From NCBI GenBank assembly GCA_028281785.1, contig JANQJG010000098.1, forward strand, positions 1-64,000: 64,000 nt of DNA, in the 5' to 3' direction. Each line of letters begins with the position of its first letter. Position 1 is the stretch's first letter. Below the pieces are notes generated by a model. The model was given only the letters and a program-made list of their open reading frames with translations. It ran no database searches and was not told the origin of the DNA. The position numbers and the translations under genes were made by a program. Positions 12,214-31,349 of the stretch are shown in pieces. Source of the stretch: Rhodospirillales bacterium (GTDB lineage: Bacteria > Pseudomonadota > Alphaproteobacteria > Rhodospirillales > Shumkoniaceae).

Positions 12214-12218
12214 CACAT

Positions 12219-14090: not shown

Positions 14091-14154
14091 TTCACTCTCC
14101 GACTTTCGCCAACATTGGATCTTGACGGTTGATGATAATTTGCGTTCAATGATA

Positions 14155-14170
14155 TTGCAACCGGTTGCAA
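14155..14170. promoter_or_regulatory. LacI-type operator between iolD and iolE
   Basis: TTGCAACCGGTTGCAA is a perfect 16-bp palindrome with the central CG typical of LacI-family operators. It lies in the 135-bp divergent promoter region of iolD (leftward) and iolE (rightward). An identical site occurs at 17519-17534 next to the LacI regulator gene of this cluster, which is therefore the likely binder. Confidence 0.85.
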
Positions 14171-14225
14171 AAATGATTTCCGGGCCGACGAAAACGGCGC
14201 AACGAGATTGAATGGCGGGAAAGAG

Positions 14226-15119
14226 ATGTCGATCAGAATCGGAAACGCGCCGTGTTCCTGGGGGGTGGAATTCGCGGACGATCCAAGGAATCCGCAGTGG
14301 ACCCGCGTTCTGGACGAATGCAGGGATGCGGGCTATCGCGGGATCGAACTGGGGCCGGTAGGCTTCATGCCCGAAGATCCGGTGGAATTGGACGATGCGC
14401 TGGAGGCTCGCGGCCTCGAATTGATCGGCGGGGTGGTGTTCCGCCCGTTTCACAATCCGGACAAATGGGATGACGTCCTCGACGGCGCTGTCCGCACCTG
14501 CAAGGCGCTGTCCGCACACGGCGCGCGGCAGCTTGTCCTTATAGACAGTATTTCCGACCGCCGGGCGCCGACGGCCGGACGGCCCGACGAAGCGGAACAG
14601 ATGGACGGGGATGAATGGCGCGCCTTTGTCGGGCGCATTCGCGAAATCACCCGGATCGGCGGGGAGGAATACGGCCTGACCGTAGGCATCCACCCCCACG
14701 CCGCCGGATTCATGGATTTCGAGGCCGAGGCGGAGCGCCTGCTCGCGGATGTTTCGTCCGACATCCTCAAGATCGCCCTTGATACCGGCCATAGCGTTTA
14801 CGCCGGTTTCGATCCGGTGGCGTTCTACAGGCGCCACAGCGATCGGGTCTCCTATGTCCATTTCAAGGATATCGCTCCGGCGATCAAAGAGGACGTCATC
14901 GCCAATCGGACCGGTTTCTACGACGCCTGCGCGCTGGGCATTTTCTGCAATTTGGGTGACGGCGCGGTGGATTTTCCGGCCATGAAACAGGCCTTGACCG
15001 ACGCCGGGTTCGAGGGATGGTGCACGGTGGAGCAGGACTGCGATCCGCAGGGGGACACCTCTCCCGTCGACGACGCGCGCGCCAATCGGAAATACCTGGA
15101 ATCCATTGGGTTCGCATAA
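14226..15119 (+). CDS. iolE: Inosose dehydratase (IolE family)
   Basis: The product is a 297-residue TIM-barrel of the sugar-phosphate isomerase/epimerase superfamily. It begins IGNAPCSWGVEF, the conserved start of IolE proteins, has GYRGIELGPVGF, the metal-site region LTVGIHPHAAGF and IALDTGHSVYAGFDPVAFY, and ends with GWCTVEQDCDP. It dehydrates 2-keto-myo-inositol to the trihydroxycyclohexanedione acted on by IolD. I start at the ATG at 14226, 12 bases after GGCGGGAAA; an ATG six codons earlier is possible. It is the first gene of the rightward unit, facing iolD across a LacI operator, and is followed 15 bp later by a Gfo/Idh dehydrogenase. Confidence 0.93.
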   Translation: MSIRIGNAPCSWGVEFADDPRNPQWTRVLDECRDAGYRGIELGPVGFMPEDPVELDDALEARGLELIGGVVFRPFHNPDKWDDVLDGAVRTCKALSAHGARQLVLIDSISDRRAPTAGRPDEAEQMDGDEWRAFVGRIREITRIGGEEYGLTVGIHPHAAGFMDFEAEAERLLADVSSDILKIALDTGHSVYAGFDPVAFYRRHSDRVSYVHFKDIAPAIKEDVIANRTGFYDACALGIFCNLGDGAVDFPAMKQALTDAGFEGWCTVEQDCDPQGDTSPVDDARANRKYLESIGFA

Positions 15120-15134
15120 GTAAGCAGGGCGAAA

Positions 15135-16292
15135 ATGAAGAAATTGAACTGGGGCATGATCGGCGGCGGCGAGGGCAGCCAGATCGGCCCGGCCCATCGT
15201 TTGGGCGCTCACCTGGACGGGCTTTTCCAAATGGTTGCCGGCGCCTTGGACATCGACCCGGACAAGGGGCGCGATTACGCGATTCGGCTGGGGATCGCCA
15301 AGGATCGGGCCTATGGCGACTGGCGCGAGATGCTGGCCGCCGAGCGTGACCGGGCCGACCGGATCGATCTGGTCACGATCGCGACGCCGAACGCCACCCA
15401 CTACGAAATCTGCACGGCTTTTCTCGAATCCGGCTTCAATGTGCTTTGCGAGAAGCCCATGACGATGACCGTCGAAGAAGGCGAGGAGATCGTGGCGCTG
15501 GCCGAGTCGTCCGGCTGCGTTTTTGCCGTGAACTACGGCTATGCCGGCTATGCGCTCGTTCGCCATATGCGGGCCATGATCGCGCGCGGCGACCTGGGGA
15601 AGGTCCGCCTCGTGAAGGCCGAGTTCGCCCATGGCTTTCACGCCGATGCCGAGGACGCCGACAACCCGCGCGTGCGCTGGCGGTACGATCCGGCCCAGGC
15701 CGGCATGTCGGCGGTCATGGCCGACTGCGGCATCCACGCGCTCCACATGGCCTGCTTCGTCACCGGCCAGGAAGTCGAAAGACTGTCCGCCGATTTTGCC
15801 TCCTGCATCTCGTCGCGGACTCTAGAAGACGACGCCATGGTTTCCTTCCGCATGTCGGGCGGCGCCGTTGGCCGCCTTTGGGCAAGTGCGATGGCGGTTG
15901 GCCATATGCATGGTCTGAACATCGAGGTTTTCGGTGAAAAGGGCGGTATCCGCTGGGCGCAGGAATGGCCCAATCAGCTTTACTGGACGCCGTTGAACGA
16001 ACCGACCCGCATCTTGGAGCGCGGCGCTCCCAACCTGTCTCCGGAGGCCGACCGCGCCTCGCGTGTGACCATCGGCCATGCCGAGGGCATGTCGCTCGCC
16101 TTTGCGAATATCTATACCGACCTTGCCGAGATCATCGGCGCGGCCCGTGACAGCCGTAAGCCGGACCCGGTAGCCATGCATTATCCGCGTGCCATCGACG
16201 GCCTGAATTCCATGGCGGCGGTGCAGGCGGCCGTCTCTTCGGCGCAGAACGGAGGACGTTGGGAAGATGCCCGCCCGCCGTCGCGTCGTTGA
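15135..16292 (+). CDS. Gfo/Idh/MocA oxidoreductase, probable inositol dehydrogenase
   Basis: A 385-residue NAD(P)-dependent dehydrogenase. The Rossmann loop is WGMIGGGEGSQIGPAHR, the conserved Lys lies in CEKPMTM, and the catalytic Asp/His pair in DCGIHALHMA (D-x3-H), as in inositol dehydrogenases. It is a candidate for the first iol step (myo- or scyllo-inositol to inosose). It is co-oriented with iolE at 15 bp spacing. A second protein of the family lies at 17643-18770, so one may act on myo- and the other on scyllo- or another inositol isomer; sequence does not tell which. Its WQ/longer N-terminal loop (GGGEGS) is the form seen in members clustered with iolE. Confidence 0.88.
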   Translation: MKKLNWGMIGGGEGSQIGPAHRLGAHLDGLFQMVAGALDIDPDKGRDYAIRLGIAKDRAYGDWREMLAAERDRADRIDLVTIATPNATHYEICTAFLESGFNVLCEKPMTMTVEEGEEIVALAESSGCVFAVNYGYAGYALVRHMRAMIARGDLGKVRLVKAEFAHGFHADAEDADNPRVRWRYDPAQAGMSAVMADCGIHALHMACFVTGQEVERLSADFASCISSRTLEDDAMVSFRMSGGAVGRLWASAMAVGHMHGLNIEVFGEKGGIRWAQEWPNQLYWTPLNEPTRILERGAPNLSPEADRASRVTIGHAEGMSLAFANIYTDLAEIIGAARDSRKPDPVAMHYPRAIDGLNSMAAVQAAVSSAQNGGRWEDARPPSRR

Positions 16293-16344
16293 AAAGCCGC
16301 AGCGGTCTGATACCGGCGAGCGGCTGAAAGGACTCGGGCCTCTC

Positions 16345-16391
16345 CTTCGACTTTGCTCAGGATGAGGCCCTCATGCTGAGCTTCGTCGAAG
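16345..16391. repeat. REP-like inverted repeat between convergent genes
   Basis: CTTCGACTTTGCTCAGGATGA and TCATGCTGAGCTTCGTCGAA (plus a final G) form a 21-bp inverted repeat with four mismatches and a 5-bp loop. It sits between the convergent iolG-like and LacI genes. The sequence type (CTTCGAC...GCTCAG.ATGA) resembles dispersed palindromic repeats common in GC-rich proteobacteria and may end transcription from both sides. Confidence 0.65.
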
Positions 16392-16420
16392 CACGAGGGC
16401 CGACTGCCCGGCGTGTCACT

Positions 16421-17422
16421 TCAAACGCTAGTTGACCTGAGCGTGTTCCGTTCGATCAGCTCGCAAGGAAGAAGCTTGACTTCCGACGGGTAGGCCGGAT
16501 TTTCCACCAACCGATCGATCAGCTCGATCGAAGTCAGGATGATGTCTTTGAACGGCTGGCGGATCGTGGTCAAACGGTAGGCCGACCAACTTGCCATCGA
16601 CATGTCGTTGAAGCCGACAAACCCCAGCTCTTCGGGGATCGCGATGCCGCGATCCCTTGCGGCATCCATGGCCCCCATACAAATCAGGTCATCCCCGCAG
16701 AAAACCGCCTCGACCTCGAATTCGTCCAGCAAGCTCTTCATGGCGCGACGGCCGGCATTGTAGGTGTACCCCTCCGCGTACCGGATGACGGAACTCCGGA
16801 GACCGATCTTTGCGGATCTGCGTTCAAATCCCGCAAGCCGGTCCTGCGTCGAGGTCGAGGTCTTCGGTCCTCCCAGAAACGCGACGTCTCGGTAGCCATG
16901 GTCGAACAGAGCCTGCGCCACCATTTCACCGCAGGCGATGTTGTCGATTCCGACGATATGGAAATCCGGGTTCGGGCTGGCGCGGCCGAAGGTATGGACC
17001 ACGGGAACCCTGGCATCCTTGAAAGCCGTCAAATATCCCTGCGGCAGCGTTGAAGACGCGATGATGACGCCGTCCACGTTGTATTGATGCAGCATGCGCA
17101 CAAAGGCCTGGGGGTCGCTTTCGTCGGTCAGGTTGACGATCAGAGGCCGCAAACCGCGTTCCTGCAATGCGCGCGTATACAGGTCGAACACTTCCACAAA
17201 AACGGGGTTTTGGTAGTTGTTGGCCACAAGTCCGATCAGCTTGGTCCGGCTGGTGGCAAGCGAGCGGGCGATCAGGCTGGGGCTGTAATCCAGCTCCCGC
17301 GCAGCCTTGAGCACCTTTTCCCGCATTTTTTTGGAAACGCTCGCTCCCTCGGTGAAGGTTCGCGATACCGCGGACCGGGAAACGCCCGCGCGTTCCGCCA
17401 CATCTTTCAGCGTGACCGCCAT
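16421..17422 (-). CDS. LacI-family regulator of the inositol genes
   Basis: The 333-residue product has the LacI DNA-binding head at residues 1-60 (TLKDVAERAGVSRSAVSRTF, then the hinge YSPSLIARSLATSRTKLIG) and a periplasmic-binding-type effector domain with GFVGFNDMSMASWSAYRLTT near the C-terminus. It is divergent from the second Gfo/Idh gene, and between them lies a copy of the perfect palindrome TTGCAACCGGTTGCAA. The same palindrome sits at the iolD/iolE promoters. This strongly suggests that it represses the whole locus and is released by inositol or an early intermediate. Most characterised IolR regulators are RpiR or DeoR/GntR types, so a LacI version is a different regulatory solution. 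Confidence 0.9.
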   Translation of the reverse strand: MAVTLKDVAERAGVSRSAVSRTFTEGASVSKKMREKVLKAARELDYSPSLIARSLATSRTKLIGLVANNYQNPVFVEVFDLYTRALQERGLRPLIVNLTDESDPQAFVRMLHQYNVDGVIIASSTLPQGYLTAFKDARVPVVHTFGRASPNPDFHIVGIDNIACGEMVAQALFDHGYRDVAFLGGPKTSTSTQDRLAGFERRSAKIGLRSSVIRYAEGYTYNAGRRAMKSLLDEFEVEAVFCGDDLICMGAMDAARDRGIAIPEELGFVGFNDMSMASWSAYRLTTIRQPFKDIILTSIELIDRLVENPAYPSEVKLLPCELIERNTLRSTSV

Positions 17423-17518
17423 CGAACTCCTAACTTCTTAAACGACCGTGCAGCTTTAGGCGAAAGAACACTATTCCAGCGATGCATGGCATGCATATTG
17501 AAAGCATCATAGGATTTT

Positions 17519-17534
17519 TTGCAACCGGTTGCAA
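17519..17534. promoter_or_regulatory. Second LacI-type operator (autoregulatory)
   Basis: TTGCAACCGGTTGCAA occurs again, identical over 16 bp to 14155-14170. It lies 97 bp upstream of the LacI gene and 109 bp upstream of the second Gfo/Idh gene, so it can control both. Confidence 0.85.
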
Positions 17535-17642
17535 ATCGGCTTTCGTCGTGTTTTACTTTGCTGCCTCGTCACGCGGGTTCTGGTGCTGGCATGAGTCACC
17601 CGGAGCAAAAGGCTATAATTTCATTTTGCTTGTGGAGTGGTC

Positions 17643-18770
17643 ATGGCGAAGCTGGGTATCGGTATCGTTGGCGGCGGATATATGGGCAAGGCGCACGCGG
17701 TCGCCTACGCCGCCGTTGGCGCCGTTTTCGACACGCCCCTGCGCCCTTCTCTGGCGATGATCTGCACGACCACGGAGAGCGGCGCGGCGGAAAAGGCCAG
17801 GTCCTATGGTTTCGACAGATCAACCGTCGACTGGCGGATGCTCGTGGCCGATCCGTCGGTGGACGCGGTGGTCATCGCATCGCCCCAGGAAACGCATCGC
17901 GACATCGCGCTGGCCAGCTTCGCGCTCGGAAAGCCGGTGTTTTGCGAGAAACCTCTGGGGACCGGCCTCGAGGATGGCCGCGCGATGCTCAAGGCCGCCG
18001 AGGCCGCCGGTGTCGTCAACATGGTTGGCTTCAACTACATCCGCACGCCGGCTTCGCAGCTCGCTCGCGACATCATCGCCTCGGGCGAGATCGGCGAGAT
18101 TACCTATTTCCGCGGTGAACATACGGAGGATTTTCTGGCCGACAGGACAGCCCCGGCATCCTGGCGCACCCGGGGCCGCGCCAACGGCTGCATGGGCGAC
18201 TTGGCCCCCCACATGGTGAACGGCGCGCTGGCCCTGGCCGGCCCCATCGAATCGCTCGTGGCCGATATCGAAACCGTGCACGCCGAGCGGCCCGGACCGC
18301 GTGGCGGACGTGAAGCCGTCGACAATGACGATCAGGGGCAGTTTCTGTGCCGCTTCGAAAACGGGGCCATGGGCGCGATCTTTATCAGCCGCATCGCCAC
18401 GGGACGCAAGATGGGCTACGCCTACGAGGTTTTCGGCAACAAGGGCGCGATCCGCTTCGACCAGGAAGACCAGAACTCACTCTGGTTGTGCAAGGGGGGA
18501 GCCGCCCCCGGGCGCGATGGGTTCACGCGGATCCTCACCGGCCCCGAGCATCCGGACTACCTGGCCTTTTGCCAGGGACCCGGCCATGGCACCGGCTACC
18601 AGGACCAGATCATCATCGAGGCCAAGGACTTCCTACGGGCCATCGAAACCGGCGAATCCGTCTGGCCCACCTTCCGCGACGGCTTGGCGGTCAGCGAGGT
18701 CATCGCCGCCGCCTGGAGATCGAGCGGAGAGAAACGCTGGGTTTCCGTCGATGAAATCCGAAAAGGATGA
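17643..18770 (+). CDS. Gfo/Idh/MocA oxidoreductase, second inositol dehydrogenase candidate
   Basis: A 375-residue dehydrogenase with Rossmann motif GIGIVGGGYMGKAHA, Lys in CEKPLGTG, and Asp/His in GDLAPHMVN (D-x3-H). The middle part includes FNYIRTPASQLARDII, typical of the family's substrate face. The start ATG at 17643 follows GTGGAG; an in-frame GTG two codons upstream is possible. It is driven from the promoter carrying the second LacI operator, so it belongs to the inositol regulon though separated from iolE by 2.5 kb. It may oxidise a different inositol isomer or a related cyclitol. Confidence 0.88.
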   Translation: MAKLGIGIVGGGYMGKAHAVAYAAVGAVFDTPLRPSLAMICTTTESGAAEKARSYGFDRSTVDWRMLVADPSVDAVVIASPQETHRDIALASFALGKPVFCEKPLGTGLEDGRAMLKAAEAAGVVNMVGFNYIRTPASQLARDIIASGEIGEITYFRGEHTEDFLADRTAPASWRTRGRANGCMGDLAPHMVNGALALAGPIESLVADIETVHAERPGPRGGREAVDNDDQGQFLCRFENGAMGAIFISRIATGRKMGYAYEVFGNKGAIRFDQEDQNSLWLCKGGAAPGRDGFTRILTGPEHPDYLAFCQGPGHGTGYQDQIIIEAKDFLRAIETGESVWPTFRDGLAVSEVIAAAWRSSGEKRWVSVDEIRKG

Positions 18771-18986
18771 GGCACGGGCCCGAGGCGGCTTCACCAAACA
18801 TGCGCCGCTTCGTGACAAAGTCGCCCCTCCCCCTTAACCGGATCCCGCTGTTAAGTCAGAGGAGCTCGGCACCGGAATCCTGGGAAGGATGGGATGAGCG
18901 GATGCCCGGTAAGCGCTTTTCAATCGAGCGGATCATCGACTATTTACGGGAGGGCGGAAGCTCGTATTTTCGATCGGCCAACTTAA

Positions 18987-19772
18987 ATGGGTGAATCCGA
19001 CGGACAGAAAACAAAGTGTTGCGGGGAATCGACAATCTTGACCACTCAGATTGAAATTGCGAAGCGCGCTTTGGGACTGCTGGACCTCACATCGCTGGGC
19101 GAGGACGACGGTGACGCGACCGTTTCCGCGCTCTGCGAGCGAGCCTACGGTCCCTGGGGCGCGGTGGCGGCGGTGTGCGTTTGGCCGCGTTTCGTCTCCC
19201 TGTGTCGGCAACGACTGGCGGAAACGGAGATTCGGGTAGCGGCCGTCGCCAACTTCCCCGAGGGGTCCGACGACATCCCGCGTGCCGTGGCGGAGACCAA
19301 GGAGATCCTCGATGCCGGCGGCGACGAGGTCGACGTGGTTTTGCCCTATGACGCATGGCTGAACGGCCGACGCGAGCAGGCGCGGGAGCTGGTGTCCCGC
19401 TGCAAGGAGGCCTGCGGGCCGGAGGGGCACCTCAAAGTCATCCTGGAAACGGGCCGCCTGGGCTGCGCCGAGAACGTGGCGGCCGCCGCGCGGGACGCCC
19501 TGGATGCGGGTGCCGACTTTATCAAGACATCGACCGGAAAGACCGAAAAGTCGGCCACCCCGGAGGCCGCCGCGGTCATGCTGGCGGCCATCCGCGAGGC
19601 CGGGTTGGCGGTTGGTTTCAAGGCGGCGGGCGGGATTCGTACGGTCCAGGATGCCGGCATTTATTTGGGTTTGGCGGATCTCATCATGGGGCCGGAATGG
19701 GCAAGCCCAGCCACCTTCCGGCTCGGCGCGAGCAGTCTGCTCGACAACCTCCTCGCCGAAACAGCTGAGTAG
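18987..19772 (+). CDS. deoC: Deoxyribose-phosphate aldolase family protein
   Basis: The 261-residue product is a class I aldolase of the DeoC family. The Schiff-base Lys is in DFIKTSTGKTEKSAT and the second catalytic Lys in VGFKAAGGIRT, with an upstream Asp in EVDVVLPYDAW. E. coli DeoC splits 2-deoxyribose-5-phosphate to acetaldehyde and glyceraldehyde-3-phosphate. The first 17 residues are not conserved in the family, and a TTG at 19038 could be the true start. It leads a rightward unit with an amidohydrolase 12 bp later. The link between a DeoC aldolase and an amidohydrolase is unusual, so it may act on a non-nucleoside sugar phosphate. Confidence 0.88.
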   Translation: MGESDGQKTKCCGESTILTTQIEIAKRALGLLDLTSLGEDDGDATVSALCERAYGPWGAVAAVCVWPRFVSLCRQRLAETEIRVAAVANFPEGSDDIPRAVAETKEILDAGGDEVDVVLPYDAWLNGRREQARELVSRCKEACGPEGHLKVILETGRLGCAENVAAAARDALDAGADFIKTSTGKTEKSATPEAAAVMLAAIREAGLAVGFKAAGGIRTVQDAGIYLGLADLIMGPEWASPATFRLGASSLLDNLLAETAE

Positions 19773-19784
19773 CAAAGGCTAAAA

Positions 19785-21326
19785 ATGGAAGCGACGACGT
19801 TGGTTCGCGGACGATACGTCCTGGAAGGCCTCGACGGGGACCGCCCCCTCGTTCATGAAGACGCGGCAGTTCTACTGAACGGTGACAAGGTTAGCGAGAT
19901 CGGTCCCTTCGATACCCTGAAAGATCGAAATCCGGGCGCCAAAATTGTCGGAACGGCCGAATCCGCCGTGATTCCCGGCCTCATCAACGCCCATCACCAT
20001 ATCGGCCTGACCCCTCTCCAACTGGGATCGCCCGACCATCCGCTGGAACTCTGGTTCGCGAGCCGGCTGGCGTTGCGCGACGTGGATCTGTATCTCGACA
20101 CCCTCTACTCGGCCTTCGAGATGATCGCCTCCGGCGTCACCACGGTGCAGCACCTACACAGCCGGGCCCCCGGCGGGCCGGAGCAGATCCTGCATGCGGC
20201 GGGGGAAGTGATTCGCGCCTACCGGGACATCGGCATGCGCGCTTCCTATTCCATCGCGCTCCGCGACCAGAACCGGCTGGTCTATGAGTCGGACGAGGCG
20301 TTTCTCCAGCGGCTTCCCGAAAGCCTGAGGCCGGAGATGGCGGAGTACTTTCGCCGTTTCACCATGCCGCTCGACGAGCAGGTCGCGGTGTTCGGGGATC
20401 TGCACGGAGCCTACAAGGGCGAACCGCGAACCCGCGTTCAGCTCGCGCCGGCCAATCTCCACTGGCTGTCGGATGCGGCCTTGGAGGCCGCCGCCGAGAT
20501 GGCCGAGCGCTTCGACGTTCCCATGCATATGCATCTGGTCGAAACGCCCTACCAGAAGATCTATGCACAGAAACGGACCGGCGGGACCGCCTTCGCCCAT
20601 TTGCATCGCTTCGGCCTGACAGGGCCCCGCATGACCATCGGCCACGGAACCTGGATGACCGAAGCCGACATCGAGCTTTGCGCCGACACGGGCACCTGCC
20701 TGTGTCACAACTGCAGCTCCAACCTGCGCCTGAAGAGCGGCATCGCGCCCGTCAACCGGTATCTGGAGCGCGGGGTCGCCGTCGCCATCGGAATCGACGA
20801 GGCGGGGATCAACGACGACCGCGACATCCTTCAGGAGATGCGTCTGGTCCTCAGGATGCATCGGGTTCCGGGGCATGGGTCGCCGTTTCCGACCCCGCCG
20901 CAGGTCCTCCGCATGGCCACCGAGCATGCCGCGAAAACGACTCCATTCGCGGCTGAGATCGGACGGCTGTCGCCGGGTCTCGCGGCGGACCTGACGGTCC
21001 TCGACTGGCGGGCGGTCACCCGTCCCTATCAGAGCGGCGATATCCCCTTCGTCGACGTGCTGGTGCAGCGCGCCAAATCCACATCCGTCCGCTCGGTGAT
21101 GGTGGCCGGAGAGCTGATCTACGATGACGGACGGTTCACCCGCGTCGACCGCGATGCCGCTCTCGACGAGATCGAAGCGCGCCTGGCCGCGCCGCTGACC
21201 GAGGCCGAGGAGCGCCGCCGCGCCTTGGCGCGGGAGGTCTTCCCCTATGTGGCGGCGTTCTATGCGGACGAGTCATGGGCTGTGCGGCCGGAGAAACCCT
21301 TCTATCGGTGGAACGACCGGGCGTGA
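19785..21326 (+). CDS. Amidohydrolase-superfamily enzyme (chlorohydrolase/deaminase type)
   Basis: A 513-residue metal-dependent hydrolase. The first metal motif is PGLINAHHHIGLTP (HxH), then MHMHLVETPY (His), TIGHGTWMTEADI (His) and GIDEAGINDDRD (Asp), the mononuclear-metal pattern of the AtzA/TrzN, guanine deaminase and SAH-deaminase subgroup. Such enzymes deaminate or dechlorinate purine- or triazine-like rings or N-heterocycles. The C-terminus returns to the beta-sandwich with GLAADLTVLDW. It lies 12 bp after deoC and 22 bp before a PuuE-like deacetylase, suggesting that ring-type nitrogen compounds are substrates. Exact substrate unknown. Confidence 0.85.
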   Translation: MEATTLVRGRYVLEGLDGDRPLVHEDAAVLLNGDKVSEIGPFDTLKDRNPGAKIVGTAESAVIPGLINAHHHIGLTPLQLGSPDHPLELWFASRLALRDVDLYLDTLYSAFEMIASGVTTVQHLHSRAPGGPEQILHAAGEVIRAYRDIGMRASYSIALRDQNRLVYESDEAFLQRLPESLRPEMAEYFRRFTMPLDEQVAVFGDLHGAYKGEPRTRVQLAPANLHWLSDAALEAAAEMAERFDVPMHMHLVETPYQKIYAQKRTGGTAFAHLHRFGLTGPRMTIGHGTWMTEADIELCADTGTCLCHNCSSNLRLKSGIAPVNRYLERGVAVAIGIDEAGINDDRDILQEMRLVLRMHRVPGHGSPFPTPPQVLRMATEHAAKTTPFAAEIGRLSPGLAADLTVLDWRAVTRPYQSGDIPFVDVLVQRAKSTSVRSVMVAGELIYDDGRFTRVDRDAALDEIEARLAAPLTEAEERRRALAREVFPYVAAFYADESWAVRPEKPFYRWNDRA

Positions 21327-21348
21327 CTCAGTAGGCGGTAGTGCGGGC

Positions 21349-22278
21349 ATGGACAGGCGGGATCTCCTTGGATATGGCGGCGATTGGCCCGATCTGCGCT
21401 GGCCGGGGGAGGCCCGAGTTGCAGTTTCGCTGGTGGTCAATGTGGAGGAGGGAGCCGAGCTTTCCATCGCCGACGGCGACGAGCGGAACGAGAGCGTCTA
21501 CGAGGCACGGGAAGAGGTCGTGGACACCGTCGACCCGTGCATGGAGAGTCATTTCGGCTATGGTCCCCGGGCGGGCTATTGGCGGATCGTCGACATCCTC
21601 GCCGATCATGGCGTTCCCGCCACCTTTTCCTGCTGCGGCCGCGCCGCCGAACGCCTTCCCTGGCTGATCCGAGATGCGGTCGGCCGTGGTCACGAGATCA
21701 GCTGCCATGGATGGCGCTGGGAAACCCACGCGCTTATGGAGCCCGAAGCGGAGCGGGAAGTCATCGCCCGCACCCATGCCGCCATCTCGCAAGCGGCCGG
21801 AATCGCTCCCGTCGGTTGGCACACCCGGTCGGCATCGACGGCGAACACCCGCCGGCTTCTCGTCGAACATGGCGGGTTTCTCTATGACTCCGACGCTTAT
21901 GACGACGACTGCCCGTACCTAGTCAGACAGGGCGATGTCGATCACGTGGTGCTGCCCTATGCATTCGACACCAACGACATGCGGTTCCAGCCGGGTGGCG
22001 GTTTTGTCCACGGCGAGGACTTCACCCGGTACTGCGTCGCCGCGTTCGAACGGCTGAGGCGCGAGGGGGCGGACGCGCCGCGTATGATGTCGGTCGGCCT
22101 GCATCTGCGTCTGATCGGCCGGCCGGCGCGGATCAACGCCCTCGACGATTTCCTGAAAGCCGTCAGGAACGGCGGTGGCGCCTGGTTCGCCACCCGCTCG
22201 ATGATCGCCCACCACTGGCGGGCGGGTGTCAGCCTCCCGGCTTGGCTGCCCCGGTCACCCGAAACCACGGACTCATAA
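21349..22278 (+). CDS. Polysaccharide deacetylase-family protein (PuuE-like), copy A
   Basis: The 309-residue product has the NodB-type fold as seen in PuuE, a polysaccharide-deacetylase-related allantoinase: VVNVEEGAELS near the N-terminus, FSCCGRAAERLP, GHEISCHGWRWETH, YDSDAYDDDCPY and GLHLRLIGRPARI. PuuE opens the hydantoin ring of allantoin, or acts on other cyclic ureides or amides. The frame opens about 34 codons upstream within the amidohydrolase gene; I start at the ATG at 21349, 22 bp after the amidohydrolase stop. Its 3' end overlaps the convergent racemase-like gene by 6 bp. A paralogue lies at 22928-23851 on the other strand. Confidence 0.82.
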   Translation: MDRRDLLGYGGDWPDLRWPGEARVAVSLVVNVEEGAELSIADGDERNESVYEAREEVVDTVDPCMESHFGYGPRAGYWRIVDILADHGVPATFSCCGRAAERLPWLIRDAVGRGHEISCHGWRWETHALMEPEAEREVIARTHAAISQAAGIAPVGWHTRSASTANTRRLLVEHGGFLYDSDAYDDDCPYLVRQGDVDHVVLPYAFDTNDMRFQPGGGFVHGEDFTRYCVAAFERLRREGADAPRMMSVGLHLRLIGRPARINALDDFLKAVRNGGGAWFATRSMIAHHWRAGVSLPAWLPRSPETTDS

Positions 22279-22935
22279 AGGCGAGCCGTCCCCCAGCAAC
22301 GCCGCGACCCGGCGAACCGCGGCGGGGACGGGCTCGATAATCGGCACGGAAAAGAGCGGCCTGAGGTCGCGTGCGGCTTCCGCCAGCGGTCCACCGCCGA
22401 TGACCACGGCCTCCGCACCGTCGATGTCGATCGCGGCCCGAACCGCCGCTTCGAGGGCGGTGAGCAGCCGCTCGGGATCGGACATGACGATTTGGGGGTC
22501 GCCTTCCGTCAGCCGGACCGAGACCAGGCCGTCGCCGAACCCGTAGTCCCGCGCGCAACGTTTGATCGCGGGGGCGAGGTCGGCCGTGGTCGTGGCGACG
22601 GAAAAGCGTCGGCCGGCAGCGGCGGCTTCGGCCATGCCGGCCTCGGCAATGCCGACGACCGGAATGGAGGTCAGGCGGCGGGCCGCCATGAGGCCCGGAT
22701 CGCCAAAGGCGGAGACGATCGCGGCGTCGGCGGCTGGCCCGGCCTCGCGAAACAACTCGGAGACGGCCTCGGCCGCCACGGTCAGGCCGGCTTCGTCGGT
22801 GATAAGAGGAACGCCATGCGAGACCGTCGCCCCGACAACGGTCAAGCCGCCGGTTGCCGCCGCCTTGGCGATGGCGACCATGCGCGCGGTGGTTCCGGCA
22901 TCGGTGTTGGGATTGACGAGCAGGACCTCAGGCAT
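22273..22935 (-). CDS. Asp/Glu/hydantoin racemase-like protein without catalytic cysteines
   Basis: The 220-residue product has the fold signatures of hydantoin/allantoin racemases: LLVNPNTDAGTTARM at the start, VSAFGDPGLMAARRL, VVGIAEAGMAEA and VVIGGGPLAEAARDL. In active racemases the two catalytic cysteines sit in a CFxDPG motif and a GCxG motif. Here the positions are Ala (VSAFGDPG) and Gly (VIGGGPL). The general architecture is kept while both acid/base residues are lost, so this is either a non-catalytic homologue, a binding subunit, or an enzyme with another mechanism. It overlaps the deacetylase B gene by 8 bp (co-transcribed) and the convergent deacetylase A gene. Confidence 0.78.
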   Translation of the reverse strand: MPEVLLVNPNTDAGTTARMVAIAKAAATGGLTVVGATVSHGVPLITDEAGLTVAAEAVSELFREAGPAADAAIVSAFGDPGLMAARRLTSIPVVGIAEAGMAEAAAAGRRFSVATTTADLAPAIKRCARDYGFGDGLVSVRLTEGDPQIVMSDPERLLTALEAAVRAAIDIDGAEAVVIGGGPLAEAARDLRPLFSVPIIEPVPAAVRRVAALLGDGSPL

Positions 22936-23851
22936 GGTCGTGGCCCAATCGCTGGGGAGGGGCCACCTCGCGGAAGGCTTCCGAGATGTCGAGGCGTCGC
23001 GCGATCCAGATCCGATCGCCGAGATCGGCCAACATCGAGAAGATCTCCTGGGCCGCGCGGAATCGCGCGGGGCGACCGCAGATCCGAAGGTGGAAACCGA
23101 TATTGAGGAGGCGCGGCTTGCCGGCTTCGGCCTCGGTCAGCAGGACCTGCAGGGCATCGCGAACATAGTCGATCATTTCCGACGACCGGGCAAAACCGTT
23201 GGGATGGAAGAACTTCATGTCGTTGCTGTCGAGCGCGTAAGGGACGACCAGCAGCGGCCCGCCGGCGACATCGAGATCCCAGTAGGGCAGGTCGTCATCG
23301 AAGGCGTTCGAGGTGTAGACAAAGCCCCTCGCGGCCAGCAACTCGCGGGTCCAGATACTCTCGCTCCCACGGCAGAAGAAGCCGAGCGGGCGCTGGCCCG
23401 TCGCGGCCTCGGTGACCTCGATGCAACGATCCAGGTCGGCCGCCTCCGACTCGCGATCGGCATAGTCGGAACTGGGGCGCCACCGCCAGCCATGACATGC
23501 AGGCTCGTGCCCCCTGCGCACGACTTCCGCCGCCAAACCGGGAACGCGCTCGACAGCGCGTCCGCAGAGGAAGAACGTCGCCGGCAGGTCCCGCGCGTCG
23601 AGCGCGTCCAGAAAACGCCACAGGCCCGCGCGCATCCCGTAGGCGAAGATCTGCTCCTGCCCGATATCGCGGGTGCCGGGTTCGACAACACTGAGCACCT
23701 CGCCCATCCGTTCCGAGGCGGCGTCGCCGTCGCCGACCTGAAGCTCCGCGCCTTCCTCGAAGTTGACGACGACGGACACGGCCAGACGCGCGCCGTTGGG
23801 CCAGGAAAAGTCGGGCGGGTTGCCCGCGTATCCGCGCAGGTCACGATGCAT
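22928..23851 (-). CDS. Polysaccharide deacetylase-family protein (PuuE-like), copy B
   Basis: A 307-residue paralogue of the protein at 21349-22278: VVNFEEGAELQ, FFLCGRAVERVP, GHEPACHGWRWRPS, YTSNAFDDDLPYW, NIGFHLRICGRPARF. The second position of the metal/His motif differs from copy A (ACHGWRWRPSSDY against SCHGWRWETH). It reads leftward, opposite to copy A, and its 3' end overlaps the racemase-like gene by 8 bp. Its start faces the SIS-domain operon across a 371-bp region, so the two units are divergent. It probably acts on a cyclic ureide, lactam or N-acyl substrate; which one is not clear. Confidence 0.82.
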   Translation of the reverse strand: MHRDLRGYAGNPPDFSWPNGARLAVSVVVNFEEGAELQVGDGDAASERMGEVLSVVEPGTRDIGQEQIFAYGMRAGLWRFLDALDARDLPATFFLCGRAVERVPGLAAEVVRRGHEPACHGWRWRPSSDYADRESEAADLDRCIEVTEAATGQRPLGFFCRGSESIWTRELLAARGFVYTSNAFDDDLPYWDLDVAGGPLLVVPYALDSNDMKFFHPNGFARSSEMIDYVRDALQVLLTEAEAGKPRLLNIGFHLRICGRPARFRAAQEIFSMLADLGDRIWIARRLDISEAFREVAPPQRLGHDHA

Positions 23852-24222
23852 CTTCTATCATCTCTTCGTCATGTGCATGGGGAAAGGAGGCTTGCCAACG
23901 TTCCGATCTGCCACCGAAATGTGCAATCAGGAAAAAATCGGGTCGGGATGATCAATTGTTGAACAGGGTGAGTTTGTTACATATATTTTTCCCGTACGGA
24001 GATTGACACAGCATGCGGATCTTAGGCTTGCGTTCAGGAACGGCCAAGTGGGCGCGGGGGAAGATGTTCAAAACCCCGTCGCGATCCTGTCGCGCCTTTG
24101 TCTCGCTTTTGGCTGCCACCCAAAGAACCTGCTTCTGATCATATCGGGAGAGCGGTCTCCCGTGGGTCAGCGTTCGCGGTGTCGCGAGCGTCGGATGTTC
24201 GTTTTTTCGGACGCGAAGCAGA
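23852..24222. promoter_or_regulatory. 371-bp divergent promoter region, no gene seen
   Basis: This region lies between deacetylase B (leftward) and the SIS/ABC operon (rightward) and should hold both promoters. An AT-rich part (about 23945-24000: GTTGAACAGGGTGAGTTTGT, then TACATATATTTTTCC) is the likeliest core. A GGTCTCCCGTG-rich part follows. Several open frames of 80 codons cross it, but none has a convincing start or family match. No operator palindrome was recognised. Confidence 0.4.
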
Positions 24223-25422
24223 ATGTCATTCCCAGAGGCCTCACCTGAAACCTCCAAGCCGGGGCAGCCGTTTCCCGAGCGGTTTGCCGATTTGCTCGCC
24301 GATGCGGTCGCGGACAGTCTCGATTTCCGGCTTATCGAGAAGGCTGCCAGAGAGGCGGCGGAACAATTCATGGCCGGCGATCGAACGAAGGCAAGCCGGC
24401 GGCTGTTCCTGGTCGGCTCGGGTGACAGTCTGTTCGCGGCGCTGTCGGCGCTCCCGGCGCTTCGGCGCTGGACCGGACTCATCGTCGAAGCGCGAACCTC
24501 GATCGAATTCTCCCGTTATGAGATTCCCGTCGTCCAGGATGGCGACGTCTTGGTCGCGGTCTCCAATTCGGGCGGTTCCTCCCGCACGCGGGAAGGCGTG
24601 CTACTCGCCAAGGAACGCGGGTTGCCGACCGTCGGCGTGACCGGTTCGTCCGATGGCCCCCTCGCGCAGTCGGCCGACATCGTCCTTCATCGTCCCGTCC
24701 AGGCGTATTCCGGCGCGCCGGAGATCGTTCGCCGAGCCCTTCTGCATACCTCGGAGTTTCTAGCGGCGTTGGCCGCCCTCTACACATTCGGCCTCAACCT
24801 CGGGGTGGCGCGGGGGCAGATCGCGGCCTCGATGCGCGACGAGACGATCAGCGAGCTTCGCGGCGCTGTCGCGTCCCTCGGCACCATCGCCGCGGCCTCC
24901 GAACCCGCCGTGGTCGAATTCCTCAACGGGGTTCCGGACCTCGACACGGTCTTCGTCCTCGGCGCCGGCCCGAACCGCGGATGCGCCGAATACTGCGCCG
25001 CCAAGTTCCATGAGCAGGTGCCCATCAACGGCGTTCCGCAGGACCTCGAGGAGTGGGCCCATCTTCAATACTTCCTGACCTATTTCAGCTGGCGCAGCCG
25101 GGGGCCCATCGTCGTTCTGGCGCCGGAAGGCAACGCGTTGGACCGTGCGCGGGAGATCGTGACGGGCATTCGCTCCGCCGGGGGCCGGTCGCTGCTGGTG
25201 ACGAATTCGACCGAGCGCTTCGAGGACGCGGAGCTGACATTCCGCATCGAGAAGCCGGCGGGTGAGCTGTTGACCCCGGCCACGTTTCACATCCCCTGCC
25301 AGCTGATGACCTTGCATTTGGCGCGCCTGCGCGGCGTGAACCCGACACCCCTCCGGCGCCGCGACGACTTCTGGCTGATCCGGAAGGGCAACGTTCTTTC
25401 CTCGCGGGCCGATTTGAAATGA
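24223..25422 (+). CDS. SIS-domain protein A (GlmS-isomerase/FrlB-like deglycase candidate)
   Basis: The 399-residue product contains two SIS (sugar isomerase) folds: residues about 60-190 (LFLVGSGDSLFAAL, VAVSNSGGSSRTREG) and about 240-370 (FVLGAGPNRGCAEYCAAKF). The motif LEEWAHLQYF corresponds to the E-x2-H region of GlmS and of fructosamine-6-phosphate deglycases. There is no glutamine amidotransferase domain. Such stand-alone proteins isomerise or deglycate phosphorylated amino sugars, for example fructoselysine-6-P. It is the first gene of an operon with an ABC importer, a second SIS protein and two PfkB kinases, which fits uptake, phosphorylation and deglycation of an amino-sugar conjugate. 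Substrate not shown by sequence. Confidence 0.85.
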   Translation: MSFPEASPETSKPGQPFPERFADLLADAVADSLDFRLIEKAAREAAEQFMAGDRTKASRRLFLVGSGDSLFAALSALPALRRWTGLIVEARTSIEFSRYEIPVVQDGDVLVAVSNSGGSSRTREGVLLAKERGLPTVGVTGSSDGPLAQSADIVLHRPVQAYSGAPEIVRRALLHTSEFLAALAALYTFGLNLGVARGQIAASMRDETISELRGAVASLGTIAAASEPAVVEFLNGVPDLDTVFVLGAGPNRGCAEYCAAKFHEQVPINGVPQDLEEWAHLQYFLTYFSWRSRGPIVVLAPEGNALDRAREIVTGIRSAGGRSLLVTNSTERFEDAELTFRIEKPAGELLTPATFHIPCQLMTLHLARLRGVNPTPLRRRDDFWLIRKGNVLSSRADLK

Positions 25423-25497
25423 TCGGATCGCGACGGGAGCAAAGGCGGCTCGACGTCCGCCACGACAAGACCACCATCGAAACAGGAGGTGTTCATC

Positions 25498-26553
25498 ATG
25501 AACGCTAAAATCACCCGCCGAACCTTCGGCAAGGGCCTGCTCGCTACCGGTGTGGCCACGGCGACGGTTTCGGCACCCTACATCGCCCGGGCTGCGGACA
25601 AGGAACTCGTGGTGATCAGCTATGGCGGTGCCCTTCAGGAACCCCACCGCTGGCTCGGCGACCAGCTGGAAGCGAAGCATGCGGGTCTCAAGGTTCGCCT
25701 GATCCCCAGCGAATCCCAGGACATCGTCGCCCAGATCAAGGCGGCGCAAGGCTACAGTCCCTACGATGCCATGCCCAATGGCGAGCCGCCCCACCTGATC
25801 GCCATGAAGGAAGGCTACATCCAGAAGGCCGATCCCAGCAAGCTTTCCAACTACGGGAATGTCTTCCCCGAATTCATCGAGAAGAGCCAGGGATATGGCG
25901 TGCCCGCGACGTTCTCGCTGATCGGCCTCGCCTACAACACGGAGCTGGTCAAGACGCCGCCGACAAGCTGGGCCGATATGTGGAACGAGGAATACAAGGA
26001 TCTGGTCGGCATCTGCCGGACCTCCTCGAACCTGGGCCTCGGGACGCTGGCGGTCACGGCGAAGATCTTCGGCGGTTCCGAGGACAATCTCGAACCAGGT
26101 TGGGAAAAGCTCAAGGCCCTCAATCCGATCGCCGGACGCAGCCCGCGTATCCTCGCCCAGATGATGGAACGCGGCGAGATCGGGATCGCCCCGCTATGGA
26201 ACAACGACGCCGCCGTCGCCGAGGCCAAGGGACTCCCGATCCGCTTCGTGAAGCCGGATCCCGGGCCGGTCGCCATCGTCTCCATCATGTCGGCGATCAC
26301 CAACACCCGCCATCCCGATCTCGTCAACGAGTGGATGGACGGTATCATCAGCGCCGAGTACCAGGCGATGGCGGCGGATGCGCCCTACTATTTCGGCGTC
26401 ACGGTCAAGGGTGTCGCCATCCCCGAGGCGGCGCGCCCCTACACGCCGTCGACACCGGAGGAGGTGACGAAACTCCAGACCGTCGACTGGAGCAAGATCG
26501 TGCCGGTCCGTCCGCAGCTTGTCGATCAGTTCGACCGCGCCTTCGCCATCTGA
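25498..26553 (+). CDS. ABC transporter substrate-binding protein, polyamine/opine class
   Basis: The 351-residue product begins with a twin-arginine-like signal (TRRTFGKGLLATGVA, cleaved near ARA-AD) and a type-2 periplasmic-binding fold of the spermidine/putrescine (PotD) family (VVISYGGALQEPH, TPPTSWADMWNEEY, PVAIVSIMSAITNTRHPD). The start ATG at 25498 follows AGGAGG by 9 bases. It feeds the ATPase and two permeases encoded 2 kb downstream. The same transporter class includes mannopine-type opine importers of Agrobacterium, which makes an Amadori or opine ligand plausible next to SIS and PfkB genes. Ligand residues cannot be assigned here. Confidence 0.87.
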   Translation: MNAKITRRTFGKGLLATGVATATVSAPYIARAADKELVVISYGGALQEPHRWLGDQLEAKHAGLKVRLIPSESQDIVAQIKAAQGYSPYDAMPNGEPPHLIAMKEGYIQKADPSKLSNYGNVFPEFIEKSQGYGVPATFSLIGLAYNTELVKTPPTSWADMWNEEYKDLVGICRTSSNLGLGTLAVTAKIFGGSEDNLEPGWEKLKALNPIAGRSPRILAQMMERGEIGIAPLWNNDAAVAEAKGLPIRFVKPDPGPVAIVSIMSAITNTRHPDLVNEWMDGIISAEYQAMAADAPYYFGVTVKGVAIPEAARPYTPSTPEEVTKLQTVDWSKIVPVRPQLVDQFDRAFAI

Positions 26554-26577
26554 ATCACAAACAAACGCGGGAACGCC

Positions 26578-27678
26578 ATGACGGAAATGGTCGACCGGGA
26601 CACGTCTCCCATGCTCGCGGACATCCGGCGTCAACCGGATGTCATCGAGGGCATCGCCGCGCGCGCCAAGGAGATCGTCGGCTTCGCCGATGCCCATCTG
26701 AGGCCGGTGGGTGGCGGGCGGCTGGTTGCCTTTGGAAGTGGCGACGGATGGTTCGCGGCCCGCGCCACGACCGCGCGGGCCGCGAACTTTTCCGCTTCGA
26801 GCGGGCTGGAGATGCTGGCGTTCACCGCCCCGACCATGGGGCCGGACGACAGGGCGCTGGCCATTTCCATGTCCGGAAATGTCGACCGCAGCGTCGAGGC
26901 CGCGCAGGCGGCGATTGAGCGCGACGTCCCCTCCGCGGCCCTGGTCAACGGGACCGGCGGCCGCCTGGCCGCGCTGGGGCTGCCGACGCTCTCTCTCGAT
27001 CTCGAGGACATCGCCCCGTTCCTGTGCGGCACCTCCTCCTATCTCGCGACCCTCTCGGTTCTGCGCATCCTGTCCGCGGCAAAAGCCGAGGTCGCGCGGA
27101 TCGTCGACACCCTGCGCCTGACGGCGCGGGCTCTGCCGGCTTTCCTGGCGCAGGCCGACGCGGTGGCCGCCGAGACTGCCACGACGCTGGCCCCGCGTCC
27201 CAGGGGGGTCAGGCTGCTGTCGGCCGGAGGGGCCGGACTGGCGATCGCGGATTATGGCGCCGCCAAACTGGTCGAACTCACGCGGACACCGTCCTGGACG
27301 GACGACATCGAAGAGTTCGCCCACCGCCAGTTCTGGAGCGCCGACGCCGGCGAACTGGTGGTGTTCCTGCCGACCACGCCGCTGGTCGCCGAGTATGCGG
27401 ACCGCAGCGCGGAAGCCCTAGCCGAGATGGGGTTCGCGACGCTGGCGATCGGCCCCCGGCCCTGGTTAGGTTCCCACGCGCGGTGGTCGATCCCCATCGA
27501 TGATGCCGACGCGGATCCGCTGATCTGCGACGCGATTGCCCTGCAACTCCTGGCCTATCGTCTGGCCGAGGCCGAGGGCCTCAATCCGAACCGGCGTCAA
27601 CACCTGAAGGACGACATTTTGCGATTCCGTGTGAGCCGTATGCTGACACGACGGTCTCTTGTCGGCACGGGACAATGA
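26578..27678 (+). CDS. SIS-domain protein B
   Basis: The 366-residue product is a second two-SIS-domain protein, clearly different from the one at 24223-25422. The first domain reads LVAFGSGDGWFAARATT, then LAISMSGNVDRSVEAAQAA (where the paralogue has SNSGGSSRT). The second has IADYGAAKLVELT and IEEFAHRQFW, corresponding to EEWAHLQYF of protein A and keeping the Glu and His. Two unequal SIS proteins in one operon suggest a hetero-oligomer, or successive deglycase and isomerase steps. It overlaps the PfkB gene that follows (ATGA), so the kinase is translationally coupled to it. Confidence 0.82.
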   Translation: MTEMVDRDTSPMLADIRRQPDVIEGIAARAKEIVGFADAHLRPVGGGRLVAFGSGDGWFAARATTARAANFSASSGLEMLAFTAPTMGPDDRALAISMSGNVDRSVEAAQAAIERDVPSAALVNGTGGRLAALGLPTLSLDLEDIAPFLCGTSSYLATLSVLRILSAAKAEVARIVDTLRLTARALPAFLAQADAVAAETATTLAPRPRGVRLLSAGGAGLAIADYGAAKLVELTRTPSWTDDIEEFAHRQFWSADAGELVVFLPTTPLVAEYADRSAEALAEMGFATLAIGPRPWLGSHARWSIPIDDADADPLICDAIALQLLAYRLAEAEGLNPNRRQHLKDDILRFRVSRMLTRRSLVGTGQ

Positions 27679-28559
27679 CACCGCGGGTCGGCGTCTTCGG
27701 ATATCTCTCGATCGACACGCTGATCCATGACAACCGCGCCTATGACGGGGTACCCGGCGGCGCCGCCCTCTATGCCGCGCTGGCGGTGATCGCGGCCGGT
27801 GGAACGCCCATCCTCCATGCCACGCGCGGACAGGATTTTCCGAAACATGTTCTTTCTTCCATCAGTACGCTCGGCGCCGACCTCTCGGCCGTGAGGGACG
27901 GCGACGGCCCCAGCCGGCGCACCCGCATCGCCTATGGCGTAGGCGAGTCGAGGACGTCCGACCACTACGCGGATCCAGACTGGTGGGAACGGACGGAGGC
28001 GCTTTTACCGCCGCTGCCTTCCACCGTCCTGGATGCCGCGGTCATGACGCCCATGCCGCCCGGCCATGCGGCCAGGATCTCGGCGGCGGTGGCCGACGGC
28101 ACCCCGATCGTCGCGGATACGAGCGAGGCGTTTGCCGGACGTTCGCCGCAGGCGCTTTTGGATTTGCTGCCGTCCATCAGTGTTTTCGTGCCCAGCACCT
28201 CTGAGACCCGCCTTCTTGTTCCGCGGGTTGACGACGATGCGGCCGCCAGGACCCTCGCGGCCCGAGGTTGCGCCGTGATTCAGAAACGCGGACCGGACGG
28301 CCTGGTTTGGGCCGACCGAACGGGGATCGTGGCAAGGCGGGCGGCGCAGGCCGCGGCGGTCGTGGATCCGACGGGCGCCGGGGACACGGTGGCCGGCGCC
28401 GTGGCCACCGCTCTGGCTCGGGAGTCTTCGCCCGAGGCTATCCTGGCTTTCGCGGTCGACATAGCGGCCATGACGATCGGGGCCCCGGGGCCGGCGGGGC
28501 TTGGGCTCGATCCCGGGCCGTTCAGAGGAGAGAAGACGCAGACATGCATGTCCAGATAG
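27675..28559 (+). CDS. PfkB-family sugar kinase A
   Basis: A 294-residue ribokinase/PfkB-fold protein: FGYLSIDTLIHDN at the N-terminus, the GGAALYAALAV substrate loop, and the ATP/catalytic motif VVDPTGAGDTVAGAVATA with the Asp general base. The N-terminal lid is short compared with ribokinase. It probably phosphorylates the imported sugar-amine at C6 before the SIS step, as FrlD does in fructoselysine degradation. It starts within the stop of SIS protein B, and its last 16 bp overlap the ABC ATPase gene, so the genes form one transcript. Confidence 0.88.
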   Translation: MTPRVGVFGYLSIDTLIHDNRAYDGVPGGAALYAALAVIAAGGTPILHATRGQDFPKHVLSSISTLGADLSAVRDGDGPSRRTRIAYGVGESRTSDHYADPDWWERTEALLPPLPSTVLDAAVMTPMPPGHAARISAAVADGTPIVADTSEAFAGRSPQALLDLLPSISVFVPSTSETRLLVPRVDDDAAARTLAARGCAVIQKRGPDGLVWADRTGIVARRAAQAAAVVDPTGAGDTVAGAVATALARESSPEAILAFAVDIAAMTIGAPGPAGLGLDPGPFRGEKTQTCMSR

Positions 28560-29587
28560 ACGGCATCGACAAATGGTTCGGCGCCAACCACGTGCTCAGG
28601 CGGTGCGATCTGTCGGTCGAGCAAGGTGAGCTGATCACGCTGCTCGGTCCTTCCGGCTGTGGGAAAACGACCCTTCTGCGCTGTTTGGCGGGGTTCGAGC
28701 TGCCGGATGGCGGCAGCGTCTCGATCGGCGAGGACAACGTGACCCATTTGGCGCCGAACCATCGCAATGTCGGTTTCGTGTTTCAGAGCTACGCCCTGTT
28801 TCCCCATCTGACGGTGGTCGAGAATGTGGGATATGGGCTGGCCGTTCGTCGGGTCTCGAAGGCCAAGCGGGTGCGGCGGGCGATGGAAACCCTGGAACTG
28901 GTGGGGCTTCAGCAGTTCGGCGACCGCTATCCGGCCCGGCTGTCCGGCGGCCAGCAGCAGCGGGTCGCGCTCGCCCGGGCGCTGGTGCTGCAGCCCAAGG
29001 TCCTGCTTCTCGACGAGGCCTTCAATGCCCTCGACGCGAAACTGCGTGTCGCCATGCAGGTCGAGCTTCGCAAGCTGGTGAAGAAAGTGGGTATCACGAC
29101 CATCTGCGTTACCCATGATCAGACCGAGGCCCTGACGATCAGCGACCGGATCGCGGTCATGTTCGAAGGACGCATCGACCAGATGGGGACCCCCTCCGAG
29201 GTCTATGAGCGGCCCTGCACGGCCTTCGTCGCCGACTTCCTCGGCACGGCCAACCTGCTCAGGCGACGGTCGGAGGGCGGATCGCTGGAGGTCGGTCCCG
29301 GCATCCGGATTTCCAGCACCTTTGACGGCGGCGTCATCGTGGTGGTCCGGCCGGAGGACGTGATGCTGTCCCAGCCCATAGAAGGGGATGGATGGGGAGG
29401 CCGGATCACCTTCTCCCGGCTTGTGGGGCCCAGCATCGAGTTCGAAATCGACACCGGGGAGGATCGTCCCGTGCGTGTCCTCTCGCCGCGGCGGGGCGGC
29501 GACCGGTATTCGGTGGGCGACCGCGTGGCGCTTGCCCTGTCGAGCCGGGATGCCTGTGTCGTGCTTCCGCATCAGGAGGCGTCATGA
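28544..29587 (+). CDS. ABC transporter ATP-binding protein, PotA-type
   Basis: The 347-residue product has Walker A GPSGCGKTTLLR, the signature RLSGGQQQRVALARAL, Walker B VLLLDEAFNALD, the switch His in CVTHDQTEAL and a C-terminal TOBE-like domain (VVVRPEDVML). Walker B reads DEAFNALD instead of the usual DEPLSALD, keeping the catalytic Glu. The ATG at 28544 is used; the open frame upstream lies in the kinase gene and is not part of it. It energises the importer formed with the two permeases that follow in ATGA-overlapped order and the binding protein at 25498. Confidence 0.92.
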   Translation: MHVQIDGIDKWFGANHVLRRCDLSVEQGELITLLGPSGCGKTTLLRCLAGFELPDGGSVSIGEDNVTHLAPNHRNVGFVFQSYALFPHLTVVENVGYGLAVRRVSKAKRVRRAMETLELVGLQQFGDRYPARLSGGQQQRVALARALVLQPKVLLLDEAFNALDAKLRVAMQVELRKLVKKVGITTICVTHDQTEALTISDRIAVMFEGRIDQMGTPSEVYERPCTAFVADFLGTANLLRRRSEGGSLEVGPGIRISSTFDGGVIVVVRPEDVMLSQPIEGDGWGGRITFSRLVGPSIEFEIDTGEDRPVRVLSPRRGGDRYSVGDRVALALSSRDACVVLPHQEAS

Positions 29588-31346: not shown

Positions 31347-31349
31347 CCC

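Follow-up and report, generated by a model that had tools for sequence, protein, structure and literature searches.

What might a protein with the fold of an allantoin racemase do once both of its catalytic cysteines have been replaced? In the known racemase mechanism, a proton is passed between two thiols. The question is raised by a gene, here termed Rac, in the window (the whole 64,000-nucleotide stretch that was analysed):

22273-22935, minus strand: Rac, Cys-less racemase-fold protein of 220 aa

Rac is an unbroken frame with 220 codons of product. It matches PF01177, the Asp/Glu racemase superfamily, with an E value of 3e-39 and 135.4 bits against a curated cut-off of 31, and profile and fold both place it in this superfamily; none of the NCBIfam models matches it at E 0.001. 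The AlphaFold (AF2) model has a pLDDT of 95.2 and a pTM of 0.92, and its best Foldseek matches are allantoin racemases (3qvk, TM 0.91), with structural Z scores of 31.7 to 5lg5, 30.1 to 3qvk, and 30.0 to 3qvj. By sequence, the nearest solved relatives are the allantoin racemases 3qvk/3qvj and 5lfd, followed by 2eq5. The 3′ end of Rac shares 6 bp with the 3′ end of a convergent PuuE-like gene (ending at 22278), and its start shares 8 bp with the 3′ end of an upstream PuuE-like gene (22928-23851, minus strand). The initial annotation, which described an intact gene overlapping two others and a retained racemase-like fold, is thus confirmed on both counts (pLDDT 95; Z of 30 to the Klebsiella pneumoniae allantoin racemase).

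The active site was examined by phmmer and profile alignments with the solved allantoin racemases, and the numbering of the KpAllR entry itself was checked (Cys79, Cys184). Four positions, all on the minus strand and given with their KpAllR equivalents, are relevant; the roles of the two threonine- and asparagine-bearing positions follow the cited passages of PMC12661438:

22906-22908, minus strand: N10, equivalent to Asn12, allantoin hydrogen-bond residue, kept
22708-22710, minus strand: codon GCC, A76, at the position of Cys79
22588-22593, minus strand: T115-T116, equivalent to Thr118-Thr119, ureido-tail pocket, kept
22393-22395, minus strand: codon GGT, G181, at the position of Cys184

Alignment with characterised allantoin racemases, the check that the initial annotation had proposed, therefore upholds its reading that the two catalytic cysteines are now Ala and Gly, and the NPNT and FGDPG motifs that it reported as kept are both present. 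Conserved cysteines at shifted positions can be discarded, since the only cysteine of Rac is C127, which lies in helix 118-130 outside both motifs and whose column does not rank among the top 15 for Cys content in 93 clade members.

Rac consequently harbors neither the catalytic Cys pair of the allantoin-hydantoin racemase (HYD) subfamily, nor the two catalytic cysteines of maleate isomerase and the Asp and Glu racemases, nor the Thr/Cys of EcL-DER. A 2025 study describes two cysteines as conserved across this superfamily (cited passages of PMC12661438). Partial departures are on record: EcL-DER has Thr/Cys in place of the Cys pair (same source), and arylmalonate decarboxylase (AMDase) has lost the first cysteine (G74; in the portion of PMC4996985 cited here). 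Because the double Cys-to-Ser mutant of OpaE retains an activity of at most 0.3% (PMC12661438, cited passages), Rac would not be expected to racemise by the known route. The two-thiol proton route cannot operate in this protein.

The remainder of the site is largely preserved. As described in PMC12661438, in the passages cited, KpAllR hydrogen-bonds its substrate through Asn12, Thr118, and Thr119, and the oxyanion hole of OpaE, as of KpAllR, is formed by the backbone nitrogens directly after each cysteine. For the oxyanion hole, the corresponding residues of Rac are F77 and G182, and both loops are kept. The substrate-binding set of the HYD subfamily (Asn/Asp12, Thr/Ser118, Thr119) is present in Rac as N10, T115, and T116. 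Across the clade, N10 occurs in 93/93 rows and Thr at position 115 in 90/93, while position 116 is Thr in 61/93 and Val in 25/93. Further residues are conserved specifically in the clade, namely T117 (93/93), D146 (80/93, plus 5 Glu), and R109 (86 of the 87 filled rows); among the 35 Cys/Cys rows, Leu or Met predominates at position 117, and positions 109 and 146 are mixed.

Rac and KpAllR/HpxA (3qvj, K. pneumoniae) therefore share the fold (Z 30.0), NPNT, FGDPG, the oxyanion loops, and equivalents of Asn12, Thr118, and Thr119. There are, however, several differences: Cys79 is replaced by A76, Cys184 by G181, and Met17 by T15, and loop 145-147 of Rac carries GDP, unlike that of KpAllR. The hydantoin racemases (HyuA) resemble Rac in Pfam family and size, and part of the Rac clade has HyuA-like gene neighbourhoods with cyclic-amide hydrolases; in contrast to HyuA, Rac is without the catalytic cysteines.

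The loss of the cysteines is an old, clade-wide state and not the decay of one gene. The clade, defined by A76 and GGGPL at 180-184, is found in a large group of soil and plant bacteria that comprises Alphaproteobacteria, Betaproteobacteria, and a small number of Actinomycetota; a viral origin can be set aside, as the viral contigs scanned yielded no relative. Conservation of A76 was judged solely from a motif-free sample obtained by whole-genome searches with the Rac protein itself (78 loci, 82 HSPs), as the patterns behind the named-genome loci include [SA]AFGDPG and make those loci unusable here. The A76/G181 pair occurs in 11/11 HSPs with at least 41% identity to Rac, in 17/33 at 34-41%, in 0/23 at 30-34%, and in 1/15 below 30%. 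Among 156 aligned rows, the states at the two cysteine positions are A/G in 108, C/C in 35, C/G in 9, G/C in 2, S/G in 1, and V/G in 1. In the tree of these rows, 93 GGGPL rows form one group with an SH-aLRT of 99, and one GGGPL row (L052) is placed outside it. With the active-site columns removed (86 rows), the 46 GGGPL rows still fall on one side of a branch with a support of 99 and the 8 xGAPL rows group with a support of 98. The hypothesis that the A/G rows all arose once is not rejected (p-AU 0.449). The clade is under purifying selection, with dN/dS values of 0.11-0.39 (median 0.19, 109 clade pairs) that speak for the clade and not for the window gene alone, to which the closest relative has 55% identity. 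The cysteine loss first noticed in this one gene thus stands, although not as a special trait of it (SH-aLRT 99; 11/11 HSPs).

Two neighboring groups, which have the A76 and/or G181 states in common with Rac, can be distinguished from the Rac clade. The sister Cys-less clade, xGAPL (e.g., L043, L015), differs in its second motif, [AG]GAPLAGLA, in an Asp at 201, in Phe in place of T116, and in mostly Ala in place of T117. The second group differs from Rac in that it keeps the first cysteine: the sequences L064-L066, L047, L051, L055, L156, and L157 have ACFGDPG together with GGA, with Gly at the second position, an intermediate state that could reveal the role of one thiol. In three loci (L155 at 1681-3113, L180, and L102 at 9989-20256), GGGPL-like and GAPL kinds share a cluster, adjoining or close to one another, as would fit a role in different steps; L102 has a Cys/Cys copy as well as both Cys-less kinds. 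The PDB sequence of Pseudomonas fluorescens AllR (5lfd/5lg5) has Gly aligned at the first cysteine position, whether natural or engineered, and the same G/C pair is found in one genome sequence (L053, 2149-2871). Locus L115, a contig labelled Frankia sp. RB7, carries a gene that the tree places within Bradyrhizobium; the contig is probably mislabelled or contaminated.

In the window, Rac is embedded in the following cluster:

18987-19772, plus strand: DeoC aldolase (TIGR00126, above cut-off)
19785-21326, plus strand: AmiH, TRZ/ATZ-type amidohydrolase, probable deaminase (PF01979 6e-41; 8-oxoguanine deaminase 7ww2 6e-28)
21349-22278, plus strand: PuuE1, second PuuE-like protein, convergent (TIGR03212 297.3 bits; start codon inferred, longest frame 21247-22278)
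22928-23851, minus strand: PuuE2, PuuE-like cyclic-amide hydrolase (TIGR03212 277.8 bits, cut-off 424.6; PuuE 3cl6 1e-66)
24223-25422, plus strand: SIS-domain protein 1, GlmS isomerase-like (PF01380 2e-21; GlmS chains)
25504-26553, plus strand: PotD-type ABC solute-binding protein (PF13343 7e-24)
26578-27678, plus strand: SIS-domain protein 2 (PF01380 1e-9)
27675-28559, plus strand: PfkB sugar kinase 1 (PF00294 1e-20)
28544-31346, plus strand: ABC ATPase and two permeases (ABC, PermA, PermB), overlapping, named from sequence and position (homologues in related operons)
31350-32285, plus strand: PfkB sugar kinase 2 (PF00294 5e-22)

PuuE1, AmiH, and DeoC converge on Rac, and the SIS, PfkB, and PotD-type ABC genes lie on its other side. 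The cluster at 16421-32285, which also has a LacI regulator and a Gfo/Idh gene, is catabolic, and its conservation, although incomplete, extends from Alphaproteobacteria into Betaproteobacteria. Much of the set around Rac is found again, in whole or in part, in loci of Aureimonas, Jiella, Ancylobacter, Skermanella (two loci), Rhodoferax, and Bosea, where a BtpA-family gene can belong to it (one representative scanned). The cluster looks like a route for using a cyclic ureide, imidazolone, or amine linked to a sugar, and a sugar moiety on the imported compound is suggested by the sugar-kinase, SIS, and aldolase genes. The two PuuE-like proteins are probably not ordinary allantoinases because their scores of 277.8 and 297.3 bits are well below 424.6.

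The source genome has 13 PF01177 matches, one of which, at C143, is a Cys/Cys racemase encoded 1.5 kb away from a true PuuE (TIGR03212, 522.8 bits); an NCS1-like transporter, as read from sequence, lies between them. The pair in the window is thus a second, diverged PuuE-racemase pair. UraD (PF09349) was not found in the source genome, though the true PuuE is present; nevertheless, Rac is unlikely to be a general replacement of this OHCU decarboxylase, as UraD is present in 9/9 other genomes searched that have a Rac locus near a PuuE-like gene.

Gene neighbours were counted in 79 loci (43 clusters at 70% identity), these being the best 80 kept from a pattern-guided scan of named genomes with L142 dropped as a duplicate. 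RpiR lies within 4 kb of Rac in 29 loci versus 2 at 6-10 kb, MFS in 28 versus 1, PuuE in 13 versus 6, amidase in 12 versus 3, TRZ amidohydrolase in 8 versus 4, and dihydropyrimidinase in 1 versus 0; for any cyclic-amide hydrolase, the values are 24/79 and 8/79. RpiR and MFS both occur within 4 kb in 21/79 loci, the commonest single context. From these counts, the regulator-transporter-Rac module is therefore the commonest arrangement, and the PuuE context is one branch. Dihydropyrimidinase is above the NCBIfam cut-off in five Cys-less loci (L158, L159, L163, L165, and L122). The sister clade is found near dihydropyrimidinase, amidase, or hydantoinase A (L158, L163, L165, L169), and the window's clade near dihydropyrimidinase in L159 and L122. 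In a phylum sample of 398 genomes, all 8 read as GGGPL-type carriers (one AGGPL) have a strong TIGR03212 match, an overlap that ignores genome size and kinship, is drawn against a list of 143 genomes, and is not used as evidence.

Taken at a rough probability of 0.45, Rac is tentatively assigned to an old subfamily within the allantoin/hydantoin racemase branch that does without thiols; it would be functional, as an enzyme acting on a hydantoin- or ureide-like compound. Because the pocket and the oxyanion loops are kept, an enzyme that transfers protons without a thiol appears most likely, its substrate being a cyclic ureide or amide or the opened form of one. Rac would bind a hydantoin- or ureide-like compound, or the ring-opened product, in a pocket homologous to that of KpAllR. 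The reaction would occur at a carbon next to a carbonyl and pass through an enediolate, which backbone amides in the AFG and GGP loops would hold, while proton transfer would fall to a non-thiol group (conserved candidates are T117, D146, E98, and R109) or to water. The outcome may be an isomerisation, or a reaction akin to one, that either readies the substrate for PuuE2 or consumes the PuuE2 product. As to reaction class, isomerisation, decarboxylation, and hydrolysis may all still be considered; to our knowledge, no activity is known for any member of the GGGPL clade. Counting against a cyclic-amide enzyme are the leading RpiR and MFS context and the Val at position 116 in 25/93 rows. A wider version is possible yet doubtful, in which a large thiol-free subfamily would perform carbon-acid or ring chemistry on cyclic ureides or amides and one branch would serve a sugar-linked hydantoin or imidazolone via the PuuE-like/SIS/PfkB/amidohydrolase operon. 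The proposal of the initial annotation that the Asp/Glu racemase fold has acquired a new function is consistent with the data, although unproven.

That Rac is instead a non-catalytic pseudoenzyme, whether a stabiliser or regulator of hydrolases (PuuE-like or other) or a sensor of ligands, is unlikely. Both catalytic thiols are gone, as such a role would allow, and the Rac start overlaps the PuuE2 stop in the window. In 10/10 loci checked, the PuuE stop likewise abuts the start of Rac or shares as many as 4 bp with it; these are 10 of the 13 loci with a PuuE match within 4 kb, the remaining three (L122, L144, L154) having another arrangement. Some PuuE homologue is also present elsewhere in 15/15 genomes chosen from loci without a nearby PuuE. 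However, PuuE is missing within 4 kb in 66/79 loci, Rac is the sole enzyme-like gene of the RpiR-MFS-Rac modules, and little or no variation is seen in the ligand pocket and the oxyanion loops, although a non-catalytic binding role would conserve the pocket equally. The earlier suggestion of a structural partner for the PuuE-like protein fits the overlapping pair but is weakened by the scarcity of PuuE, which lies within 4 kb in 13/79 loci. As Rac is found with RpiR and MFS or with dipeptide-ABC genes elsewhere, it is probably not just a PuuE subunit, although a PuuE homologue encoded elsewhere in the genome could still serve as its partner.

It is improbable that Rac is a cofactor-free decarboxylase resembling AMDase, in which CO2 would be lost, the oxyanion loops would stabilise the resulting enediolate, and either water or a group other than a thiol would protonate it. 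AMDase shares the fold (Z 17.0 to 3ixl) and the absence of the first cysteine, for which its G74 is the precedent within the fold (PMC4996985, in the portion cited). Yet AMDase keeps Cys188 and needs it for protonation (same portion), whereas the corresponding motif of Rac has no cysteine. When the AMDase signature from that source (Gly74 and the proton donor Cys188) was positioned on Rac by hand, no Cys was found in either motif. Moreover, the operon suggests no substrate for decarboxylation.

A hydrolase or lyase with new chemistry, for example one opening or closing a cyclic amide, likewise has a low probability. Part of the clade neighbours cyclic-amide hydrolases and deaminases, and the transporter-plus-Rac modules would need a single enzyme yielding a usable product, but neither a metal site nor a nucleophile motif is recognised, and D146 and T117 are mere candidates. 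A decayed gene or a misalignment is hardly credible in view of the clade-wide fixation, the dN/dS of 0.11-0.39, the intact frame, and the pLDDT of 95.

Where annotated, clade members in plasmid-collection records are labelled “aspartate/glutamate racemase family protein” or “hydantoin racemase”, and no paper on a Cys-less clade was found in the open-licence PMC literature searched. With A76/G181 fixed and the allantoin-binding residues kept, the racemase annotation is probably misleading for many genes. Since one genome has a Cys/Cys and a Cys-less version, each with a PuuE-type hydrolase nearby, the two can be compared directly. The Rac clade is a stable, so far unexplained variant; if active, a superfamily member with neither cysteine would be new, and a fold with a fixed Cys-less clade points to a chemistry or role that has not yet been described.
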